DNA of 64,000 nt from Geodermatophilus sp. TF02-6. Lineage in GTDB: Bacteria > Actinomycetota > Actinomycetes > Mycobacteriales > Geodermatophilaceae. Below the pieces are notes generated by a model. It searched no databases, was not told where the DNA came from, and saw only the letters and a list, made by a program, of their open reading frames with translations. The stretch lies in the NCBI RefSeq assembly GCF_003319115.1, contig NZ_QOHF01000007.1:62001-126000 (forward strand), written 5' to 3'. The stretch's first letter is position 1; every line of letters starts with the position of its first letter. Below, in pieces: positions 46,599-62,077 of the stretch. A program made the position numbers and the translations under genes.

Positions 46599-47969
<1,371 letters not shown>

Positions 47970-48044: not shown

Positions 48045-48770
48045 ATGTCGTTCTCCACACGGAGGCAAGCCTTGCTGGCTCTCCACCCGTACGATTCGAG
48101 CGTGACCGCCGTCCCGCTGGAACTGGACTCGTCCGCGCCCACGTCCCTGGCGGACAAGGCCTACGTGGCGATCAGGGACCGGCTGATCATGCTCGCCATC
48201 CGACCGGGTGATCCGATCGACGACGACGCGTTGGCCCAGGACCTCGGCGTGGGCCGGACCCCCGTCCGCGAGGCGCTGAAGCGGCTGGAGGTCGACCGGC
48301 TCGTCGTGTCCTACCCGCGGCGGGGGACGTTCGCGACCGGCATGGACATCTCCGATCTGGCGCACATCTCGGAGATCCGCGCTCAGCTGGAGCCACTGGC
48401 CGCCCGTCGCGCCGCCGAGCGGAGCGCTCGAACCGCATCCACCGAGCTCGAGGAGCTCGCCGCGCGCATCGACCACCTGGACGTCGCCCTGGTCGACCCG
48501 ACCGAGCTGATGCGCTGGGACCTGGCCGTGCACCGGGCCATCTACCGGGCGGCGGGCAACCCGCACCTGGAGGACGTCCTCATCCGCTACGACAACCTGG
48601 CGACGCGGATCCACTGCGTGTTCCTCGACCGGCTGCCCACGGTGGACGTCCATGTCCGGGAGCACGTAGATCTGCTCCGGGCGATCGCCGCCGGGGACGC
48701 CGATCGGGCCGACGACCTCGCCCGTCGACACGTGCTCGGCTTCGAGCAGGCGATTCGCGCGGTGATCTGA
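48045..48770 (+). CDS. GntR-family (FadR-type, FCD domain) regulator
   Basis: Up to 241 residues from ATG 48045. TTG 48072, with GGAGG 6 nt upstream, may be the real start (232 residues). The winged helix SLADKAYVAIRDRLIMLAIRPGDPI and LAQDLGVGRTPVREALKRLE is followed by an all-helical FCD domain with the metal-binding DLAVHRAIYRAAGNPHL and HVREHVDLLRAI. Divergent from sdaA. Likely controls serine, glycine or sarcosine catabolism and itself through the TATATCAG-type sites (inference). Confidence 0.92.
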   Translation: MSFSTRRQALLALHPYDSSVTAVPLELDSSAPTSLADKAYVAIRDRLIMLAIRPGDPIDDDALAQDLGVGRTPVREALKRLEVDRLVVSYPRRGTFATGMDISDLAHISEIRAQLEPLAARRAAERSARTASTELEELAARIDHLDVALVDPTELMRWDLAVHRAIYRAAGNPHLEDVLIRYDNLATRIHCVFLDRLPTVDVHVREHVDLLRAIAAGDADRADDLARRHVLGFEQAIRAVI

Positions 48771-49040: not shown

Positions 49041-49625
49041 TCAGCTCTTGTGGGTGGGGGTGAACTCCAGGGCGGCGTCCAGCAGCCAGTCGGCGAGGTA
49101 CCCGGCGAAGGAGGACCGGACGAGGAGCAGGTAGTCGTCGCCGGTGTCCGAGAGGCCGAGCAGCACGACGCCGGCCAGGCCGAGGGTCGTCTGAGCGCTG
49201 CTGCCCCGGCCGAAGACCCGCGGGTGCAGGTCGATCGCGCAGCCCCTGGCCAGCACGTCGCGCACCCGCGCCCCGGTCAGCCGCAGGCCGATGCGCTGCG
49301 CGGAGACGTCCACAGCGGCACCGCCGAGCGGGAGGACGGCGCTCCGGACGCGGGCCTCGAACTCCTCCGGCGTCTCCGCCGTGCTGGAGAGCAGCCACTC
49401 GTCGGGACCGAGCCAGACGGCCCACCCGGAGTCGGTCGGCACCCAGGTGTTGACCGCCGTCGGCAGGTCGACGCCGAGCGCCGCCGACACCTCCGGGCCG
49501 AGGGCGCCGAGCCGGACGTCGACCATCGCGACGAACGGCTCGACGGTGGTGCCGACGGTGTCGGGCAGGCGCTCGAAGGCCGTGGCCCACGCCTCCAGCG
49601 GGTGGGTGCGCAGCAGCTCAGCCAT
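49041..49625 (-). CDS. soxG: Sarcosine oxidase gamma subunit
   Basis: 194 residues, the usual gamma-subunit size. Starts MAELLRTHPLEAWATAFERL, and has AVNTWVPTDSGWAVWLGPDEWLL and ARGCAIDLHPRVFGRG, typical of SoxG with its GcvT-like fold. Overlaps the end of soxA by 8 bp and is the last gene of the sox operon. Assists assembly of the heterotetramer that oxidises sarcosine to glycine. Confidence 0.93.
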   Translation of the reverse strand: MAELLRTHPLEAWATAFERLPDTVGTTVEPFVAMVDVRLGALGPEVSAALGVDLPTAVNTWVPTDSGWAVWLGPDEWLLSSTAETPEEFEARVRSAVLPLGGAAVDVSAQRIGLRLTGARVRDVLARGCAIDLHPRVFGRGSSAQTTLGLAGVVLLGLSDTGDDYLLLVRSSFAGYLADWLLDAALEFTPTHKS

Positions 49626-52488
49626 CGCGACGGGCTCCTTCGGGATCGACCAGCACCGAGCCGGTGACCTCGACCGGGACGAGGGTGCCGTTGACGGGGA
49701 CGTGGACGGTGTCGCCGATGCGCGACCGGCCTCCCTTGACCAGGGCGAGGGCGAAGGGACGCCCGAGCTCGGCGCTGCGGTAGCTGGAGGTGACGTGACC
49801 GAGCATCGGCACCGGCGGGGGCGGCAGCTCGCCGTCGGCGCGGAACTCCACGATCTGCGAGCCCTCGGGCAGCACGGTCTGCCGGTCCCCGGGCAGGAGC
49901 CCGACCAGCTGCTTGCGCAGCGGGTCGGCGTTGGCCACCCGGGCGAACGAGCGCTTGCCGACGAAGTCGGGCTTCTTCTTCGACACCGCCCACGCCATGC
50001 CGAGGTCCTGCGGCGTGACGGTGCCGTCGGTGTCCTGCCCGATGATCGGGTAGCCCTTCTCCGCGCGCAGGACGTGCATGGTCTCGGTGCCGTACGGGGT
50101 GATGCCGTACGGGCGGCCGGCCTCGAGCAGCCGCTGCCACACGGCGACCGCGTACCAGGGGTTGACGTAGACCTCGAAGGCCAGCTCTCCGGAGAAGCTG
50201 ATCCGGGCCAGCCGGACCGGCACCCCCTCGAGGGTGGTGTCCCGCCAGGTCATGAACGGGAACGCCTCGGCGGAGACGTCGACGTCGGGGAAGACGGCGC
50301 CGATGACGTCGCGGGAGCGGGGGCCGACGACGGGGAAGGTGGCCCACTGCTCGGTGACCGAGGTGCAGTGGACGCGCAGCTCCGGCCACTCGGTCTGCAG
50401 CCACTCCTCCATCCAGTCGAGGATCTTCGCCGCGCCGCCGGTGGTGGTGAGGACGAGGAAGCGGTCCTCGGCCAGGCGCAGCACGGTGCCGTCGTCGATG
50501 ACCATGCCGTCGACGCCGCACATGACGCCGTAGCGGACCGAGCCGACCTTGAGGCTGCTCATCAGGTTCGTGTAGAGCCGGTCGAGGAGGACGGCCGCGT
50601 CGGGGCCCTGGACGTCGATCTTGCCCAGGGTGGAGCCGTCGAGGATCCCGACGCCGGTGCGGGCGGCGGCGCACTCCCGCAGGACCGCGGCCTCCATGTC
50701 CTCGCCGGGCTGCGGGTAGTAGCGGGGACGCTTCCACTGGCCGACGTCCTCGAAGACCGCCCCGGCGGCCGCGTGCCACTCGTGCAGGGCGGTGACCCGC
50801 TCGGGGTCGAAGAGCCGGCCACGGTCCCGGCCGGCCAGCGCCGCGAAGGCCACCGGGGTGTAGGGCGGCCGGAACGTGGTGGTGCCGGTGTCCTGCACCG
50901 GGACCCCGAGCAGTTCGGCGGTGATCCCCGAGGTGAGGACGCCGGAGGTCTTGCCCTGGTCGTGCGCGGTCCCGATCGTCGTGTAGCGCTTGACGTGCTC
51001 GATGGAGCGCATCCCGGCGCCGACCGCCCGGGCGATGTCGGCGACCGTCGCGTCGCGCTGCAGGTCGACGAACTGAGTACGCGCTTGCGCGCCGGAGGCG
51101 TCCGGCACCCGCCACAGCACCAGCGGCGCGGTCGGGAGGACGGGCTGCTGGGCAGCCGGTGCGGGGTCCTCCCCCGGCGGCTGGACGGCCAGGGCCTCCA
51201 GCGCCGCGCGGGCCACCCGCTGCCCGTCGGCCAGGCACCCGGCCAGGTCGAACACGCCTGCGGCCGAGCCGGTGACGGACAGGCCCTCGAGTTCCTCGGC
51301 CGGGAGGAACGCGCCGAGCTCCTCGTCGTAGCGGAGCCGGCCGCGGGCCTGGCTGAACAGGTGCACTGCGGGGTTCCAGCCTCCGCTGACCAGGAGCAGG
51401 TCGCAGGCGATCGCGCTGTTGGCGCCGACCTCTCCGTTCTCGAACGGGGCGACGAGGGCGTGCGTGACCCGCTCGACGCCCTCGGTACCGACCACGACGG
51501 ATCCGTCCAGGACCCGGATCCCGGCGCGCTCGCACTCCTCACGTCGGCGCGGCGAGCCCTCCGGCCGGGCGTCGACCACCGCCTGCACCCGCGCGCCGGC
51601 CCGGTGCAGGTCGAGGGCGGCGTCGTAGGCGCTGTCGTTGGTGGTGAACACGACGGCCTCGCGACCGGGCAGCACGCCGTAGCGGTGCAGGAACGTCCGG
51701 GCGGCGCCGGCGAGCATGACGCCCGGGCGGTCGTTGTCGGTGAACACGACCGGTCGCTCGTGGGCTCCGGTCGCCACGACGATGGCGCGGGTCCGGAAGC
51801 GCCACACCCGCTGGCGGGACAGGTGCTTGGGCGCGGTCGCACCCAGGTGATCCGTGCGCCGCTCGAGCGCCAGCACGAAGCCGTCGTCGTAGCCGCCGAA
51901 GGCGGTCGTGCGCTGCAGGTGCAGCACCTCCGGGTGCCCGGCCAGCTCGGCGACCGCCGCGGCGACCCACTGGAGCGCTGGAGCGTCGTCGAGCTGGTCG
52001 GTGCCCGACAGCAGCGAGCCGCCGGCTTCGGACTGCTCGTCGACGAGCGCGACCCGGGCCCCGGCCCGGGCGGCGGTGAGCGCGGCGGCCAGGCCCGCGG
52101 GGCCGGCTCCCACGACCAGCACGTCGACGTGGTGGTGGACCGCGTCGTAGCGCGCGGAGTCGGGCACCTCGGCCAGGCACCCCTGCCCCGGCAGCCCGTG
52201 GGCGACCAGGCCGTCGTAGAGCTCGACCGTCGTGGCCAACAGCATCGGCTCGGGGAACGGCTCCTCGATCTGCACCAGGCCGCCCGGGTCCTCGGCCCAG
52301 GCTGCGGCGATGCCGCGCGGTCGGCCGAGCTTGACGCTCGTGGCGATCTGGTGCCGGCCGGAGGCCAGCAGCGCCGAGGCCAGCGTGTCACCGGGGTGAC
52401 CGGTGTAGGTCTGCCCGTCGAAGGTGAACTGCAGGGTGGTGGTGCGGTCGACTCGGCCGCCCGAGGCGGTCCGGAACGGGCTCGTCAT
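49618..52488 (-). CDS. soxA: Sarcosine oxidase alpha subunit
   Basis: 956 residues. N-terminal beta-grasp (TLQFTFDGQTYTGHPGDTLASALLA) is followed by an NAD(FAD)-binding half with VLVVGAGPAGLAAALTAARAG and RAIVVATGAHERPVVF. The C-terminal folate-binding GcvT-like half has KIDVQGPDAAVLLDRLYTN, and GLAWAV-like motifs appear as LGMAWAVSKKKPDFVGKRS. It holds the noncovalent NAD and folate sites and captures the methyl group as 5,10-methylene-THF. Start ATG 52488 overlaps the soxD stop by 4 bp. Confidence 0.96.
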   Translation of the reverse strand: MTSPFRTASGGRVDRTTTLQFTFDGQTYTGHPGDTLASALLASGRHQIATSVKLGRPRGIAAAWAEDPGGLVQIEEPFPEPMLLATTVELYDGLVAHGLPGQGCLAEVPDSARYDAVHHHVDVLVVGAGPAGLAAALTAARAGARVALVDEQSEAGGSLLSGTDQLDDAPALQWVAAAVAELAGHPEVLHLQRTTAFGGYDDGFVLALERRTDHLGATAPKHLSRQRVWRFRTRAIVVATGAHERPVVFTDNDRPGVMLAGAARTFLHRYGVLPGREAVVFTTNDSAYDAALDLHRAGARVQAVVDARPEGSPRRREECERAGIRVLDGSVVVGTEGVERVTHALVAPFENGEVGANSAIACDLLLVSGGWNPAVHLFSQARGRLRYDEELGAFLPAEELEGLSVTGSAAGVFDLAGCLADGQRVARAALEALAVQPPGEDPAPAAQQPVLPTAPLVLWRVPDASGAQARTQFVDLQRDATVADIARAVGAGMRSIEHVKRYTTIGTAHDQGKTSGVLTSGITAELLGVPVQDTGTTTFRPPYTPVAFAALAGRDRGRLFDPERVTALHEWHAAAGAVFEDVGQWKRPRYYPQPGEDMEAAVLRECAAARTGVGILDGSTLGKIDVQGPDAAVLLDRLYTNLMSSLKVGSVRYGVMCGVDGMVIDDGTVLRLAEDRFLVLTTTGGAAKILDWMEEWLQTEWPELRVHCTSVTEQWATFPVVGPRSRDVIGAVFPDVDVSAEAFPFMTWRDTTLEGVPVRLARISFSGELAFEVYVNPWYAVAVWQRLLEAGRPYGITPYGTETMHVLRAEKGYPIIGQDTDGTVTPQDLGMAWAVSKKKPDFVGKRSFARVANADPLRKQLVGLLPGDRQTVLPEGSQIVEFRADGELPPPPVPMLGHVTSSYRSAELGRPFALALVKGGRSRIGDTVHVPVNGTLVPVEVTGSVLVDPEGARRDG

Positions 52489-52763
52489 GGGATCACCGGC
52501 TTCGGGTCATCGAGGCGGTAGACGCGCTCGAAGCGGTAGGTGGCGGTGTCGCGGATCGCATTGAACCAGCGGCGGCAGCCGGCGCTGTGCGACCAGCGCT
52601 CGGCGAAGCGGCCCTTGGGGTTGTCGCGGAAGAACACGTAGTGTGCCCACTCCTCGTCGGAGAGCCCGGCCGGGTCCTCCGGATACGCGACGTGGGCCTG
52701 GCCGCCGTAGTAGAACTCGACCTCCTCGCGGAGGCCGCACCACGGGCATTCGATGAGTTGCAC
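52485..52763 (-). CDS. soxD: Sarcosine oxidase delta subunit
   Basis: 92 residues from GTG 52763 (AGGAG 7 nt upstream). The zinc-binding N-terminus IECPWCGLREEVEFYYGGQ and the conserved WAHYVFFRDNPKGRFAERW and GCRRWFNAIRDT identify SoxD. Further Cys/His at SAGCRRW complete the metal site. Lies between soxB and soxA in the usual order B-D-A-G. Confidence 0.95.
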   Translation of the reverse strand: MQLIECPWCGLREEVEFYYGGQAHVAYPEDPAGLSDEEWAHYVFFRDNPKGRFAERWSHSAGCRRWFNAIRDTATYRFERVYRLDDPKPVIP

Positions 52764-52792
52764 GGAGGACTCCTGTATCGGTGGGCGCTGGG

Positions 52793-54025
52793 TCAGTGGG
52801 CCACGGCGGCGGCGCCGTGCTCGTCGACGAGCGCTCCGGTGACGAAGCGGTCCAGGCTGAACGGCGCCACGTTGGGGTGGGGCTCGTCGTTGGCGATGGT
52901 GGAGGCGAGGCACCAGCCGATGCCGGGCGTGGCCTTGAACCCGCCGGTGCCCCAGCCGCAGTTCAGGTAGAGGTTGTCGTAGGGGGTCCGCCCGGCGATC
53001 GGTGAGGCGTCCGGGCTGACGTCGACGATCCCGCCCCAGCTGCGCAGCAGGTGCGCCCGGGCGAACACCGGGAACAGCTCCACCGCGGCGGCCATCTGCC
53101 GCTCGATGATGTGGAACGCGCCGCGCTGCCCGTAGCCGTTGTAGGAGTCGACGCCGGCGCCCATGACCAGCTCGCCCTTGTGCGCCTGGGAGACGTACAC
53201 GTGCACCGCGTTGGACATCACGATGGTCGGGTGCATGGGCTCCAGCAGCTCGGAGACCAGGGCCTGCAGCGGGTGGCTCTGCACCGGCACGCGGAAGCCG
53301 AGCATGTCGGTGAGCACCGTCGTGTGCCCGGCGGCGCACAGGGCGACCCGCCCGGCGGCGATGTCCCCGCGGGTGGTCCGCACCCCCGTGACCCGGTTGC
53401 CCTCGGTGGTGAACCCGGTGACCTCGCAGTCCTGGATCAGGTCGATCCCGGCCTCGTCGGCACGCCGGGCGAAGCCCCAGGCGACGTAGTCGTGCTTGGC
53501 GATGCCCGCGCGGGGCTGGTAGGTGGCCCCCAGCACCGGGTAGCGGATGTCGGCCGAGGTGTTGACGATCGGGCAGATCTTGCGGACCTCGTCCGGCTCC
53601 ACCCACTCGGCGTCGACCCCGTTGAGCTTGTTGGCCTCGACCCGTCGCACGCTGTCGCGGACGTCCTGCAGCGTGTGTGCCAGGTTCAGCACCCCGCGCT
53701 GGCTGAACAGGATGGGGTAGCCCAGGTCCTCCTCCAGCCCCTCCCAGAGCTTGAGCGCCTGCTCGTAGATGGCCGCGCTCTCGTCCCAGAGGTAGTTGGA
53801 GCGGATCAGCGTGGTGTTGCGGGCCATGTTGCCGCCGGCCAGCCAGCCCTTCTCCAGCACCGCGACGTTGGTGATGCCGTGGTTCTTCGCCAGGTAGTGC
53901 GCGGTGGCCAGGCCGTGCCCGCCGCCACCGACGATGACCACGTCGTAGGAACGCTTCGGCTCCGGGTTCCGCCACAGGAAGTCCGGGTGCTCCGGCAGGT
54001 CCGCGCCGGGGGTGCGGGGGCTCAT
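52793..54025 (-). CDS. soxB: Sarcosine oxidase beta subunit
   Basis: 410 residues. DAO-type FAD-binding motif [37 protein letters not shown], and the C-terminal [20 protein letters not shown]. It is the catalytic subunit with the amine-oxidising flavin. Start ATG 54025 overlaps the glyA stop (54022) by 4 bp, so glyA-soxBDAG is a single translationally coupled operon. Confidence 0.96.
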
Positions 54026-55380
54026 CGGGAGACCTCCGTCAGGTCGGGGTACAGGGGATGACGATCGGCCAGCCGGGTGACCCGCTCGCGGAGCTCGGCG
54101 AGCTGCTCGTCACCGAGCGAGGGCCGCAGCGCGGCGGCGATCACGTCGGACACCTCGACGAAGTCGTCGAGGTCGAAGCCGCGGGCGGCCAGCGCGGGGG
54201 TGCCGATGCGCACCCCGGAGCTGACCATCGGCGGGCGGGGGTCGAAGGGCACGGCGTTGCGGTTGACCGTGATGCCGATGGAGTGCAGCCGGTCCTCGGC
54301 CTGCCGGCCGTCCAGCTCCGACTCGCGCAGGTCCACCAGGACGAGGTGGACGTCGGTGCCGCCGCTGACGACGTCGACGCCCGCCGCGCGGGAGTCGGCT
54401 GCCAGCAACCGGTCCGCCAGGATCCGGGCGCCGGCGAGGGTGCGCTCCTGGCGCTCCCGGAAGGCCGGCTCACCGGCCAGCTTGAAGGCGACCGCCTTGG
54501 CGGCGATGACGTGCTCGAGGGGCCCGCCCTGCTGACCGGGGAACACCGAGGAGTTGAACTTCTTGGCCAGGTCGGCGGTGGCCAGGATGACCCCACCGCG
54601 CGGACCGCCCAGGGTCTTGTGGGTGGTCGAGGTGACGACGTGCGCGTGCGGCACCGGGGAGGGGTGCAGCCCGGCGGCGACGAGCCCGGCGAAGTGGGCC
54701 ATGTCCACCATCAGGTAGGCCCCGACCTCGTCGGCGATCCGGCGGAACTCGGCGAAGTCCAGGTGACGCGGGTAGGCCGACCAGCCGGCCACGATGAGCT
54801 TGGGCCGCCGCTCCTCCGCCAGCTTCTCCACCTCGGCCATGTCGACCCGGTGGTCCTCGCGGCCCACGTGGTAGGCGGCGACGTCGTAGAGCTTGCCGGA
54901 GAAGTTGAGCTTCATCCCGTGCGTCAGGTGGCCGCCGTGGGCGAGGTCGAGGCCCAGGATGGTGTCGCCGGGCTCCAGCAGGGCGGACATCGCCGCGGCG
55001 TTGGCCTGCGCGCCCGAGTGCGGCTGCACGTTGGCGTACTCGGCGCCGAACAGCGCCTTCAGCCGGTCGATGGCCAGCTGCTCGATCACGTCGACGTGCT
55101 CGCAGCCGCCGTAGTACCGCCGGCCGGGGTAGCCCTCGGCGTACTTGTTGGTCAGCACCGAGCCCTGGGCCTGCATCACCGCGACCGGGGCGAAGTTCTC
55201 GCTGGCGATCATCTCCAGCGTCGTCTGCTGCCGGGCCAGCTCGGCCGAGATCGCGCGGTGCACCTCGGGGTCGGTGTCCCCCAGCGACCGGCTGAGCACG
55301 CGGTCCGAACCGGCCGAGGCGCGCAGCCCTCCGTTCCCCTGGACGGGGGCCTGCAGCCCTTCATCCACCTGGACGACCAT
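54022..55380 (-). CDS. glyA: Serine hydroxymethyltransferase
   Basis: 452 residues from ATG 55380 (GGAAGGA 7 nt upstream). Conserved stretches: [36 protein letters not shown], the PLP-lysine segment [16 protein letters not shown], and [15 protein letters not shown]. About 25 additional N-terminal residues precede the usual start of homology. It links glycine and 5,10-methylene-THF (released by sarcosine and dimethylglycine oxidases) into serine. Being first in the sox operon, it is a dedicated catabolic copy rather than the housekeeping enzyme. A palindrome lies 36 bp upstream. Confidence 0.96.
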
Positions 55381-55415
55381 GCCGGGATCCTTCCTGTCAT
55401 GTATCAACCCGAAAA

Positions 55416-55700: not shown

Positions 55701-58202
<2,502 letters not shown>

Positions 58203-58330: not shown

Positions 58331-59452
58331 TCAGTTCGACAGGCGCCCGGTCAGCCACTCGTGGAAGGCGCCGATGTGGTGCTCGGAGGGCACGAGCACG
58401 CCGCCGCCCGCGTAGGCGCGGGAGGACATGGCCGGCTGGGTCCGCTCGCAGGCGGCGAAGTCCTGCTCGTTGACCCGGTGGAACAGCTCCACCGACCGCG
58501 TCACGTCCTTGCCCGACTCGACGACCTCGTGCGAGTACAGCCAGTCGCACTCGACGATCGTCCGGTCGGCCGAGACCGGGAACATGCGGTGGAGGATGAC
58601 GTGGTCGGGCACCAGGTTGACGAACACGGTGGGCCTGATCGTGATGGCGTAGTAGCGACGGTCCTGGTCCTCGTCGACCCCCGGGAGCCGGTCGAAACCC
58701 TCGCTGCCGTCGACGGTGAAGCCCTGGACGTCGTCCCCGAACTCCGCGCCGTGCCCGACGAAGTACTGCGCTGCGTAGCCGTCGGCGAACTCGGGGAGCA
58801 CCTCGGTGAGCTCCGGGTGGATCGTCGCGCAGTGGTAGCACTCCATGAAGTTCTCGACGATGAGCTTCCAGTTCGCCTGGACGTCGTAGGTGATGCGGCG
58901 CCCCACCGACAGCGAGTCGAGCTCGTAGTGCTCGATCGAGTCCGCGTCGCCGAGGCGCTCGACGACGGCGGCCACGACGTCGTCCTCGAAGGACGGGGGT
59001 TCCTTCGCCAGGCACACCCACGCGTAGCCCAGCCACTCCCGCAGCGCCACCGGCACCAGGCCGTACTCGACCCGGTCGATGTCGGGCATCTTGGTCAGGT
59101 TGGGGGCCGCGATGAGCTTGCCCGACAGGTCGTAGGTCCAGGCGTGGTAGGGGCACTGGAAGGCCCGCTTGACCTCTCCGGAGTCCTCCGTGCAGATCTG
59201 CGCACCTCGGTGCCGGCAGACGTTGAGGAACGACCGCAGCTGCCCGTCGCGGCTGCGGACGACGAGCACGCTCTCCCTGCCCACCTGGACCTTCCGGAAG
59301 GAGCCGGGCGTCGGCAGGTCGGCCGAGCGCACGGCGCAGAACCACATGTCCTCGAAGATCCGGGACTGTTCCAGCGCGAAGACGGCCGGGTCGGTGTAGT
59401 ACTGGCCCGACAGCGTGGGGATGAGGCTCGCGGGCAGATCGGTGGAGGTCAC
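58331..59452 (-). CDS. gbcA: Rieske-type glycine betaine monooxygenase, oxygenase subunit
   Basis: 373 residues from GTG 59452. The Rieske motif is CRHRGAQIC..QCPYH (Cys-x-His-x16-Cys-x2-His). The mononuclear iron site is VENFMECYHCATIHPEL with the two His of ring hydroxylases. The C-terminal part resembles GbcA/choline-monooxygenase-type N-demethylases. Followed on the same strand by dimethylglycine oxidase, its product's enzyme. This context makes glycine betaine the likely substrate. An IclR gene lies upstream with the motif TGTTGC-N26-GCAACA in the gap. Stachydrine-type betaines are an alternative. Confidence 0.88.
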   Translation of the reverse strand: MTSTDLPASLIPTLSGQYYTDPAVFALEQSRIFEDMWFCAVRSADLPTPGSFRKVQVGRESVLVVRSRDGQLRSFLNVCRHRGAQICTEDSGEVKRAFQCPYHAWTYDLSGKLIAAPNLTKMPDIDRVEYGLVPVALREWLGYAWVCLAKEPPSFEDDVVAAVVERLGDADSIEHYELDSLSVGRRITYDVQANWKLIVENFMECYHCATIHPELTEVLPEFADGYAAQYFVGHGAEFGDDVQGFTVDGSEGFDRLPGVDEDQDRRYYAITIRPTVFVNLVPDHVILHRMFPVSADRTIVECDWLYSHEVVESGKDVTRSVELFHRVNEQDFAACERTQPAMSSRAYAGGGVLVPSEHHIGAFHEWLTGRLSN

Positions 59453-59556
59453 ACGGCACCTCGGGTTCCGTCGGGCGATGTGAGGGGACACGCTGGAGGT
59501 CGGGCAACGCAGGTCTGGGTCGACCACGGTCGTCGTCTGGTCAGGACGACCCGCTG

Positions 59557-59594
59557 TGTTGCAGATTACCCACCCGCTCGCGCCTGGCGCAACA
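59557..59594. promoter_or_regulatory. Candidate IclR operator, gbcA promoter
   Basis: TGTTGC (59557-59562) and GCAACA (59589-59594) are inverted and 26 bp apart, in the 194-bp gap between the IclR gene and gbcA. The identical pair with identical spacing occurs at 60519-60556. The half-sites are about three helical turns apart, compatible with an IclR tetramer. Confidence 0.6.
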
Positions 59595-59646
59595 ACTCGC
59601 CGTCTCGGCTCTCGCTCCACCGCCACCGGCGGCACCACCAGCCGGG

Positions 59647-60447
59647 TCAGCGCGGGCGGCCGAAGAAGCCCAGCCTCCTGCTCAGCTCGTCAGCGCCCGA
59701 CACGACCCGCGGGGCGAGCCTCGGGAAGTCCGCCGAGTCCATCCGGAAGGAGGGGCCCGAGACGCTGAGGGCCGCGACCACGTCTCCGTCCGCGTCCCGG
59801 ACGGGCGCGGCGACGGCGTTGAGGCCGACCTCGTACTCCTCGACGGTCGAACCCCAGCCCCGCTCGACGATCCGGTCGAGGTGCCGGCGCAGCTCTTCGG
59901 GATCGGTGATGGTGGCGGGGGTGAAGCGCTGCAGCTCCCGGGACAGCACGCCCTTGCAGACGGCGTCGGGCGCGTGGGCCAGGAGCACCTTGCCGCTCGA
60001 GGTGGCGTGCAAGGGGGTACCCTGCCCCACCCAGTTGTGCGTGCTGAGCGCCGCCGGCCCGCGGACCTGGCTGACGTTCACCGCACGGTCGCTGTCCAGG
60101 ATGGCGATGTTCACGGTCTCCTCGAGATCGGCGGCCAGCGCCTCGCAGATCCGCCGTCCCTCCTGGGCGATGTCCAACTGCGCGGCGGCGGCGCCGGCCA
60201 GGCGCACGACGCCGAAGCCCAACCGGTACTTGCCCCGATCGGCCAGCTGCTCGACGAAGCCCCTGCTCTCCAGCACCGCGACCAGCCGGAAGGCCGTCGA
60301 CTTGTGCACCCCCAGCTCGGCGGCGACCTCCGTGACGCCGACCTCCCCGTGTGCCGCCAGGATCTCCAGGACGCTCAGGGCGCGGTCCACGGACTGGACC
60401 GCGGCGACCGCGTTGCGCTCTCCGTTCTCCGCCTGCGGCCCACTCAT
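59647..60447 (-). CDS. IclR-family transcriptional regulator
   Basis: 266 residues. N-terminal winged helix SVDRALSVLEILAAHGEVGVTEVAAELGVHKSTAFRLVAVLE and the C-terminal effector domain with HATSSGKVLLAHAP and TVEEYEVGLNAVAAPV. ATG 60447. Flanked by gbcA (same strand) and by the divergent Rieske ferredoxin/reductase pair. The twin TGTTGC-N26-GCAACA sites on both sides strongly suggest it controls the first, oxygenase step and its electron supply. Effector probably betaine or a demethylation product (inference). Confidence 0.93.
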   Translation of the reverse strand: MSGPQAENGERNAVAAVQSVDRALSVLEILAAHGEVGVTEVAAELGVHKSTAFRLVAVLESRGFVEQLADRGKYRLGFGVVRLAGAAAAQLDIAQEGRRICEALAADLEETVNIAILDSDRAVNVSQVRGPAALSTHNWVGQGTPLHATSSGKVLLAHAPDAVCKGVLSRELQRFTPATITDPEELRRHLDRIVERGWGSTVEEYEVGLNAVAAPVRDADGDVVAALSVSGPSFRMDSADFPRLAPRVVSGADELSRRLGFFGRPR

Positions 60448-60518
60448 GACCTAGAGCGTAGGGCGCGGATCGCGGGGTCGGCCGCTCCCCTTGACGGTGG
60501 AGCGAGGCCGAGCCATGC

Positions 60519-60556
60519 TGTTGCGCCATAGGCAAACAGTCGTGATAGACGCAACA
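60519..60556. promoter_or_regulatory. Candidate IclR operator, divergent iclR / ferredoxin promoter
   Basis: TGTTGCG (60519-60525) and CGCAACA (60550-60556) form a 7-bp inverted pair; the core TGTTGC/GCAACA is separated by 26 bp, as at 59557. It fills the 125-bp gap between iclR and the ferredoxin gene and ends 17 bp before the ferredoxin start. Confidence 0.65.
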
Positions 60557-60572: not shown

Positions 60573-60893
60573 ATGATCCCGGTCTGCCCCACGACCGCGT
60601 TGCCGCCCGGCGAGGCGATCCGGGTGGAGGCCGACGAGCCCATCGCGGTCTTCAACGTCGACGGCGACTTCTACGCGATCGACGACACGTGCACCCACCA
60701 GGACGCCTCGCTGGCCGACGGCTGGCTGGACGGCTGCGCCGTGGAGTGCCCCCTGCACGCCTCGTGCTTCGACCTGCGCACCGGGAAGGTCTCCGGCCCG
60801 CCGGCCAAGATCCCGGTCCGCACCCACCGGGTCGTCGTGCAGGACGGCATGGTCTACGTGCAGCCGGGAACCCCCGCGGACGGCGCCGCATGA
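60573..60893 (+). CDS. Rieske [2Fe-2S] ferredoxin (non-heme dioxygenase electron donor)
   Basis: 106 residues. Rieske ligands CTHQDASLADGWLDGCAVECPLH (Cys-x-His ... Cys-x2-His). Soluble, with no anchor. Immediately followed by its reductase (ATGA overlap). With the oxygenase 1.1 kb away it forms a three-component system like those of biphenyl or naphthalene dioxygenases. Known Pseudomonas glycine betaine monooxygenase instead uses one FNR-type reductase, GbcB. Confidence 0.93.
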   Translation: MIPVCPTTALPPGEAIRVEADEPIAVFNVDGDFYAIDDTCTHQDASLADGWLDGCAVECPLHASCFDLRTGKVSGPPAKIPVRTHRVVVQDGMVYVQPGTPADGAA

Positions 60894-62077
60894 GCCCCAC
60901 CGTCGCCGTGGTCGGAGCCTCCCTGGCCGGCCTGTCGGCAGCGCGCGCTCTCCGGGCGCAGTCCTACGGCGGCCGCATCGTGGTCATCGGCGACGAGGTG
61001 CACGCCCCCTACGACCGACCGCCCCTCTCCAAGGGGTTCCTGGCCGGCACGGCCTCGCTGGACGACATCGCCCTGAGTGCACCCGACGACGAGGACCTCG
61101 GGCTGGAGTGGCGGCTGGGCACTCCGGCGGTCGGCCTCGACCGCCTCGGCCGCTCGGTGCTGCTCGACGACGGCAGCGAGGTCCGGGCCGACGGCGTCGT
61201 CCTCGCCACCGGCGCCCGCGCCCGCCGCCTGCCCGGCAGCGAGGGGCTCGCCGGCGTGCACGTGCTGCGCTCCCTGGACGATGCCCTCGCCCTGCGGGAG
61301 GACCTGGCCGCCGGCGGACGTCTCGTCGTGATCGGCGCCGGCTTCATCGGGGCGGAGGTCGCCTCCACGGCCCGCCGCCTCGGGCTGGAGGTCACGGTCG
61401 TCGAGACCCAGCCCGTCCCGCTCGCCGGCCCGCTGGGTGCCGAGATGGGCGCGGTCTGCGCCGAGTTGCACGCCGACCACGGCACCCGCCTGCTGACCGG
61501 CACCGGGGTCGCCGGACTGGCGGGCACCGGCAGGGTCGAGGCCGTGGAGCTGACCGACGGCACCCGCCTGCCCACCGACGTGGTGGTCGTGGGGATCGGC
61601 GCCGCACCGAACACCGAGTGGCTGGCCCACTCCGGCGTCGCTCTCGGCAACGGCGCCCTCGGCAACGGCGTCCTCACCGATGAGCGCGGCGCCACCAACA
61701 TCCCCGGCGTGGTCGCCGTCGGCGACTGCGCCGCGGCGTGGTCGGCCCCCGCGGAGCGGCACGTCCGCACCGAGCACTGGACCACCGCGCTGGAGCAGCC
61801 GGCCACCGCGGTCGCCACGCTGCTGGGCGCCGGGGAGCCGGCGCCGACCCCGGTCCCCTACTTCTGGTCCGACCAGTACGGCGCCCGCATCCAGTTCGCG
61901 GGTTCGCGCCGCGAGGGCGACGTCGCACGGGTCGTGGAGGGCAGCTGCGCCGACCGCAGCTTCCTGGTGGCCTACGAGCGCGACGGCGAACCCGTCGCCG
62001 TGCTCGGGATGAACCAGCCCCGCCTGTTCACGCGGTGGCGCCGACAGCTCCGCTCCCCCGTGCCGACTCCCTGCTGA
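60890..62077 (+). CDS. FAD-dependent ferredoxin reductase (GR-type)
   Basis: 395 residues. Two Rossmann motifs: VAVVGASLAGLSAARAL (FAD) and VVIGAGFIGAEVASTARRLG (NADH). YDRPPLSKGFLAG and NIPGVVAVGDCAA are shared with BphA4/putidaredoxin reductases, and the C-terminal dimer domain has PYFWSDQYGARIQFAG. ATG 60890 overlaps the ferredoxin stop. It passes electrons from NAD(P)H to the Rieske ferredoxin, and from there presumably to GbcA. Confidence 0.94.
   Translation: MSPTVAVVGASLAGLSAARALRAQSYGGRIVVIGDEVHAPYDRPPLSKGFLAGTASLDDIALSAPDDEDLGLEWRLGTPAVGLDRLGRSVLLDDGSEVRADGVVLATGARARRLPGSEGLAGVHVLRSLDDALALREDLAAGGRLVVIGAGFIGAEVASTARRLGLEVTVVETQPVPLAGPLGAEMGAVCAELHADHGTRLLTGTGVAGLAGTGRVEAVELTDGTRLPTDVVVVGIGAAPNTEWLAHSGVALGNGALGNGVLTDERGATNIPGVVAVGDCAAAWSAPAERHVRTEHWTTALEQPATAVATLLGAGEPAPTPVPYFWSDQYGARIQFAGSRREGDVARVVEGSCADRSFLVAYERDGEPVAVLGMNQPRLFTRWRRQLRSPVPTPC

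Follow-up and report, generated by a model that had tools for sequence, protein, structure and literature searches.

The DNA analyzed here, a stretch of 64,000 nucleotides from Geodermatophilus sp. TF02-6 that we refer to as the window, contains on its reverse strand a regulator gene (59647..60447) whose product of 266 amino acids has the two domains that define an IclR-family transcription factor, HTH_IclR (PF09339, E 6.5e-17) and IclR_C (PF01614, E 9.6e-45). Downstream on the same strand is a gbcA-like gene for a Rieske oxygenase (58331..59452), for which we infer a GTG start at 59452; the mechanically called open reading frame extends to 59638. GbcA is the best NCBIfam model for this protein (E 2.6e-66), and since the score of 223.8 bits lies below the cut-off of 670 for GlBtMonoOxGbcA, the substrate is not certain. 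On the other side of iclR, two forward-strand genes found by domain and model searches encode a Rieske-type ferredoxin (fd; 60573..60893) and a ferredoxin reductase with Pyr_redox_2 and Reductase_C domains (60890..62077, predicted ATG at 60890). The reverse-strand cluster goes on with a gene for a protein with the domains DAO, FAO_M, GCV_T and GCV_T_C (55701..58166), which from this domain order we take to be a dimethylglycine dehydrogenase/oxidase (dmg), a serine hydroxymethyltransferase gene likewise found by domain and model searches (54022..55407), and sarcosine oxidase genes (49041..54025) made up of a SoxG family gene (49041-49625), an alpha-like gene (49618-52488) and a beta-like gene with a DAO domain (52793-54025). 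A serine dehydratase gene (46599-47969, reverse strand) lies at the far end. The gene set presumably represents the route from betaine through dimethylglycine, sarcosine, glycine and serine to pyruvate. A GntR/FCD-family regulator gene (48045-48770, forward strand) is divergent to the serine dehydratase gene, and the serine end of the cluster may have its own control.

An earlier note on this sequence had pointed out the inverted pair TGTTGC-N26-GCAACA on both sides of iclR, at 59557-59594 in front of the gbcA-like gene and at 60519-60556 in the divergent gap between iclR and the ferredoxin gene, and had judged it hard to explain by chance. Both 38-mers are present exactly at these coordinates, and they are the only two occurrences in the assembly (GCF_003319115.1; 4,725,362 bases in 53 contigs), where the reversed control pattern has none. 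When any spacing from 5 to 35 bases was allowed, the window held two pairs compared to 0.01 expected from shuffled windows, and none of 100 shuffles reached two. Allowing up to two mismatches in the N26 motif weakened this result (two in the window versus 0.65 expected, with 13 of 100 shuffles reaching two). Shortening the arms to 5 bp gave three places in the assembly and one for the control, and the third of these places (on C51) lacks the GTTGCG/CGCAAC arms described below. No further operator was found elsewhere in the window, the next best candidate having 10 of 12 outer bases and 14 of 24 overall. In a wider scan of the genome for a regulon (5-bp arms, one mismatch), 77 places were found versus 46 for the control, with no third credible operator among the matches listed. 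A single palindrome of the kind described below was also tried as a genome-wide probe and rejected: GTTGCG-N5-CGCAAC with one mismatch gave 9 places compared to 20 for the reversed control, so that one palindrome alone is uninformative in a genome scan, and within the window the same pattern with two mismatches gave 7 matches where 5.26 were expected.

The geometry of the motif differs from that first described, a single long-spaced pair of half-sites around unrelated bases. Alignment of orthologous sites gives a 36-bp consensus, GTTGCG-N5-CGCAAC-N2-GTTGCG-N5-CGCAAC, which consists of two tandem 17-bp palindromes with their centers 19 bp apart and thus of four half-sites, the outer pair being strict and the inner pair degenerate across orthologs. 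Operator 1, at the gbcA promoter (59558..59593, reverse strand), reads GTTGCG ccagg CGCGAG cg GGTGGG taatc TGCAAC, with 6, 4, 4 and 5 of 6 bases matched in its half-sites, and operator 2, in the divergent gap (60520..60555, reverse strand), reads GTTGCG tctat CACGAC tg TTTGCC tatgg CGCAAC, with 6, 4, 4 and 6 matched. The inner half-sites, clear in relatives, are thus matched at only 4 of 6 positions each in both window copies, which explains why the interior had seemed unrelated. The four-box structure does not depend on choosing sites by the motif. In a profile made by aligning the whole upstream region of the 30 loci with an fd hit, with no use of the motif for selection, the mean information was 1.77 bits in the outer left box, 0.13 in the spacer, 1.66 in the inner left box, 0.37 in the middle, 1.02 in the inner right box, 0.84 in the second spacer and 1.72 in the outer right box. 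The 36-bp site as a whole averaged 1.18 bits, compared to 0.82 for the non-coding stretch toward iclR and 1.39 for the fd coding stretch; because the coding stretch is conserved like the site, it is the four-peak pattern within the site, and not its mean, that constitutes the evidence. In more distant loci, the inner boxes drop to about 3 to 6 bits per box or turn into GGAAC/GTTCC-like sequences while the outer boxes keep 9 to 10 bits, the outer values being inflated by the selection of these sites on the outer-box score. Of the 65 distant downstream gaps, 12 showed GTTGC directly repeated at 19 bp.

The conservation of the element was examined beside 97 distinct iclR loci, of which 32 are close (at least 68% identity) and 65 distant (47 to 63% identity). 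The loci were drawn from the list of iclR matches (30 given loci and 60 chosen regions, two of them already present); identical iclR sequences were counted once, and the window itself (L001, L002), two loci with 31% and 25% identity (L061, L062) and the pattern hits (L063-L101) were left out of the set. The closest named loci among the matches listed belong to Geodermatophilus, Blastococcus and Modestobacter. Of the 32 close and 65 distant loci, 27 and 24, respectively, have an exact GTTGC-N26-GCAAC pair in the 300 bp upstream of iclR, and 20 of each group have one in the 350 bp downstream; in 200 block shuffles, no spacing gave a count above 2. Upstream of iclR, the half-length pattern GTTGC-N7-GCAAC is about as frequent as the N26 form, being present in 28 of the 32 close loci. 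If the outer boxes are scored, the ortholog of operator 2 is retained with at least 11 of 12 bases in 30/32 close loci, and the gbcA-side ortholog of operator 1 with at least 9 of 12 bases in 29/32 and at least 11 of 12 in 20/32; L011 has no gbcA-side copy (8 of 12 outer bases). Measured against the refuting condition of the earlier note, two of the 32 close orthologs lack the element beside iclR, and neither of them has gbcA or fd hits within 1 kb. Across 112 genomes of the family, the motif with 6-bp arms occurred at 51 places in 36 genomes, compared to 4 for the reversed control; not all 51 places resemble the operator, the exceptions including those in G406 and G113 as well as two of the three in G152. 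At the class level, where 29 loci besides the window's own were sampled (28 of them outside the order), nine matched 11 or more of the 12 outer bases, and four of these matched all 12.

The element accompanies not just iclR but iclR together with the pathway genes. All 30 close loci with fd, gbcA or dmg hits within 1 kb carry it, and the two without such neighbors do not. In the distant set, it was present in 26 of 33 loci with such hits within 1 kb and in 6 of 32 without; since these loci are related to one another, the p-value of the Fisher test treats them as more independent than they are and gives a rough indication only. Exceptions exist in both directions, with 7 of the 33 lacking the element and 6 of the 32 carrying it. 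The association holds in several families, the element also occurs near more distant IclR proteins, and in clusters with a different gene order it precedes the fd or the dmg-like gene. In G413 it lies between the iclR-like and the dmg-like gene, and two Williamsia loci have one copy in that position and another between iclR and fd. The two close orthologs with no element beside iclR are from a rearranged cluster (G316), where the element is found upstream of fd with one outer mismatch, and from a decaying cluster with a gbcA fragment and a truncated fd (G340). The broken betaine cluster of G340 holds two iclR copies with equal match scores (L168, L169), the second of which was inspected separately outside the 97-locus set; one copy adjoins the truncated ferredoxin gene and the gbcA fragment, and its half-sites are 25 and not 26 bases apart.

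A generic promoter and terminator scan found none of the promoters discussed here and no terminators, and the following hexamers are predicted from conservation. For the ferredoxin gene, a putative -35 element (TTGACG, 60491..60496, forward strand) and a weak -10 element (CATGCT, 60514..60519, forward strand) are suggested, the latter directly abutting operator 2, so that the start site would fall inside the operator. All 30 close loci with the site carry TTGAC, followed after 17 or 18 bp by the hexamer that abuts the operator; this hexamer is CATGCT in 20 of them, CATGCT displaced by one base in 2 and a variant in 8; among distant loci, 25 of 31 have TTGAC at 16 to 19 bp. For the gbcA-like gene, the predicted -35 element (TTGCGC, 59587..59592, reverse strand) lies in the left outer half-site of operator 1 and is followed after 18 bp by a predicted -10 element (TAATCT, 59563..59568, reverse strand); all 29 orthologous sites have a box of the TTGCG or TTGTG type in their left half-site and TAnnnT 18 bp further on. 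The copy in the divergent gap abuts the predicted ferredoxin promoter, and for iclR itself there seems to be a separate -10 element (TACGCT, 60455..60460, reverse strand) in conserved columns 7 bases before the ATG and 59 bp from the operator. The position of this conserved hexamer suggests that the iclR transcript may be leaderless or nearly so. In four distant loci (L106, L110, L151, L155), a single GTTGC-N7-GCAAC upstream of iclR overlaps ATGAGCAAC, maybe the iclR start codon, and is a possible autoregulatory site.

With good confidence, we regard the two 36-bp elements as the predicted operators of the IclR-family protein encoded between them, which would act as an effector-released repressor of glycine betaine demethylation, probably as a tetramer. 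Two IclR dimers, probably forming one tetramer, would occupy the two tandem palindromes. Protein bound at operator 2 would sit where transcription of the ferredoxin and reductase genes is predicted to start, and protein bound at operator 1 would sit on the predicted -35 and -10 elements of the gbcA-like gene, the first of the demethylation genes; in both cases, the promoter would be blocked. Taken at face value, these positions on the fd start site and in the gbcA core promoter point to repression. A compound of the pathway would then release the protein, and the oxygenase and electron transfer genes would be turned on together. The idea of a tetramer-type operator co-regulating these two sets of genes had been put forward at the outset, and the parts of it that concern the adjacent IclR protein and co-regulation gain support from the way the element goes with iclR and fd, gbcA or dmg-like genes across families, and the form of the element would suit a tetramer, while the single-pair geometry does not hold.

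Several other explanations were weighed. A chance coincidence of short inverted repeats is next to inconceivable: the half-sites are short, and with two mismatches a small share of the shuffled windows does as well as the real one, but exact matching in the window shuffles, uniqueness in the assembly, the family genomes with their control and the ortholog loci all point the other way, and the conservation refutes it, in line with the improbability claimed originally. It is improbable that the outer half-sites alone form the operator, as one long dyad with incidental inner boxes, which was the first proposal for this site. The strictness of the outer boxes and the variable, less informative inner ones at distant loci would fit such a dyad, although those loci were selected on the outer boxes; the unselected profile gives the inner left box nearly the information of the outer left one with almost none in the spacer between them, and the N7 form is found upstream of close iclR genes nearly as frequently as the N26 form or more so. 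Very improbable, in our view, is that the TTGC boxes serve chiefly as divergent -35 elements or as the site of some other factor and that the link to IclR is incidental. The invariable TTG-type box at the gbcA -35 position with its TAnnnT partner would be expected from this, and the distant loci that have the element without pathway genes, or the genes without the element, are compatible with it. However, the TTGAC box of fd lies outside the element, the four-box dyad with a 19-bp period matches a class of sites of the IclR family, and the element follows iclR and the pathway genes through several families.

A different sign of regulation is unlikely, though less easily set aside: the IclR protein could be an activator or a dual regulator that, when bound to its effector, keeps RNA polymerase in place at the promoters of gbcA and fd, a mode of action known from some IclR proteins. 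Activated promoters often have a weak -35 element, and that of gbcA (TTGCGC) is weak. In addition, the best-scoring NCBIfam model for our protein, although below its cut-off (TransRegBhcR, 190.2 bits compared to 350), is BhcR of Paracoccus, a member of the same family as E. coli IclR and AllR that is described as an activator whose potential palindrome is located upstream of the -35 element (PMC11323563). Here, both operators instead overlap or directly adjoin the predicted core promoter or start site and do not lie upstream of the -35 element, and we therefore favor repression, with activation of the BhcR type as the main rival for the sign. For release from the DNA, the model is E. coli IclR, whose tetramer is, according to the same source, stabilized by pyruvate and dissociated by glyoxylate into dimers that leave the DNA (PMC11323563).

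Judged from its sequence, the element is genuine and conserved, a tandem-palindrome operator for a regulator of the IclR family, and belongs to a known kind. The group 1 palindromes of the family include GTT-11-AAC, and tandem palindromes 18 to 22 bp apart occur in 94 orthologous groups and are linked to tetramers, according to Suvorova and Gelfand (2021, PMC8222616). The sites described here agree with this, having a 17-bp palindrome of the GTT-N11-AAC kind in the conserved profile (with eroded inner boxes in the window) and centers 19 bp apart. The nearest relative in that source is the GTT-11-AAC subgroup (PMC8222616), with which our element shares the 17-bp GTT-N11-AAC frame, C and then R at the conserved positions that follow and the tandem spacing of 18 to 22 bp; it differs in having GTTGCG and not GTTYCR, an interior in which YW3R is not conserved, outer half-sites that are strict and inner ones that are loose, and a betaine/dimethylglycine regulon. 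The strict consensus GTTYCRYW3RYGRAAC does not fit, because G replaces Y at the fourth base and the interior lacks conservation, and we therefore place the site among the tandem operators of the family and not in the strict subgroup; GTTYCG is present in the left outer box of four of the class-level relatives. TtgV of Pseudomonas putida (PDB 2XRN/2XRO), which the same paper names as the DNA-bound structure for the IclR family (PMC8222616), is related to our regulator by sequence (E 8.1e-17) and controls efflux transporters.

Catabolism of glycine betaine in Pseudomonas, including gbcA-type genes, is controlled by GbdR; control by GbdR and the control proposed here both concern gbcA-type genes, but GbdR is an AraC-family activator and not an IclR protein. 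In Corynebacterium glutamicum, the creatine utilization genes, which belong to a related pathway for methylated amino acids in another actinobacterium, are reported to be controlled by AmtR (PMC8864220), a TetR-family nitrogen regulator. Neither betaine nor sarcosine is mentioned in the main text of PMC8222616, and no IclR regulator of betaine or dimethylglycine genes was found described among the papers listed by the searches, including passages of PMC3141670. The operator architecture has thus been published for other IclR proteins, while the particular betaine switch looks new. For the breakdown of betaine in Geodermatophilaceae and related actinobacteria, it supplies an operator and a regulon defined precisely enough to be tested, and the strict outer and graded inner half-sites offer a natural series for how IclR tetramers read DNA.

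The effector domain of the regulator contains a tryptophan, Trp139, that is invariant in all 97 proteins of the clade examined. Among the five relatives of solved structure that were compared, none has Trp at this place; the residues aligned with it are Arg in 1mkm, Glu in 3r4k, Ser in 2g7u and 5tjj and Pro in 1tf1, that is, AllR, which differs from our protein at this position. In the 35 loci that lack the operator, Trp139 is just as invariant. Our guess is that it could provide an aromatic contact to a methylated amine. A more far-reaching and rather doubtful scenario is that of a widespread actinobacterial repressor of betaine and dimethylglycine demethylation that senses a methylated amine through this clade-specific residue, in which only the two outer subunits of the tetramer would read the DNA strictly, the inner boxes would tune affinity and ligand-driven tetramer dissociation would switch both promoters.

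An inverted repeat, CGGTCGTC...GACGACCG, was noticed in the predicted 5' leader of the gbcA-like gene just downstream of operator 1 (59527-59552, reverse strand), with GGGTCGTC as its first arm in the window. No covariation beyond that of shuffles was detected among 26 orthologous sequences, in which 94.7% of positions were paired compared to 94.5% in shuffles, and the window leader folded no better than shuffled sequences, 138 of 200 of which folded at least as well. Thirteen one-sided changes kept the pairing, all of them to G-U. The repeat may form a hairpin or serve as a second site for a protein.
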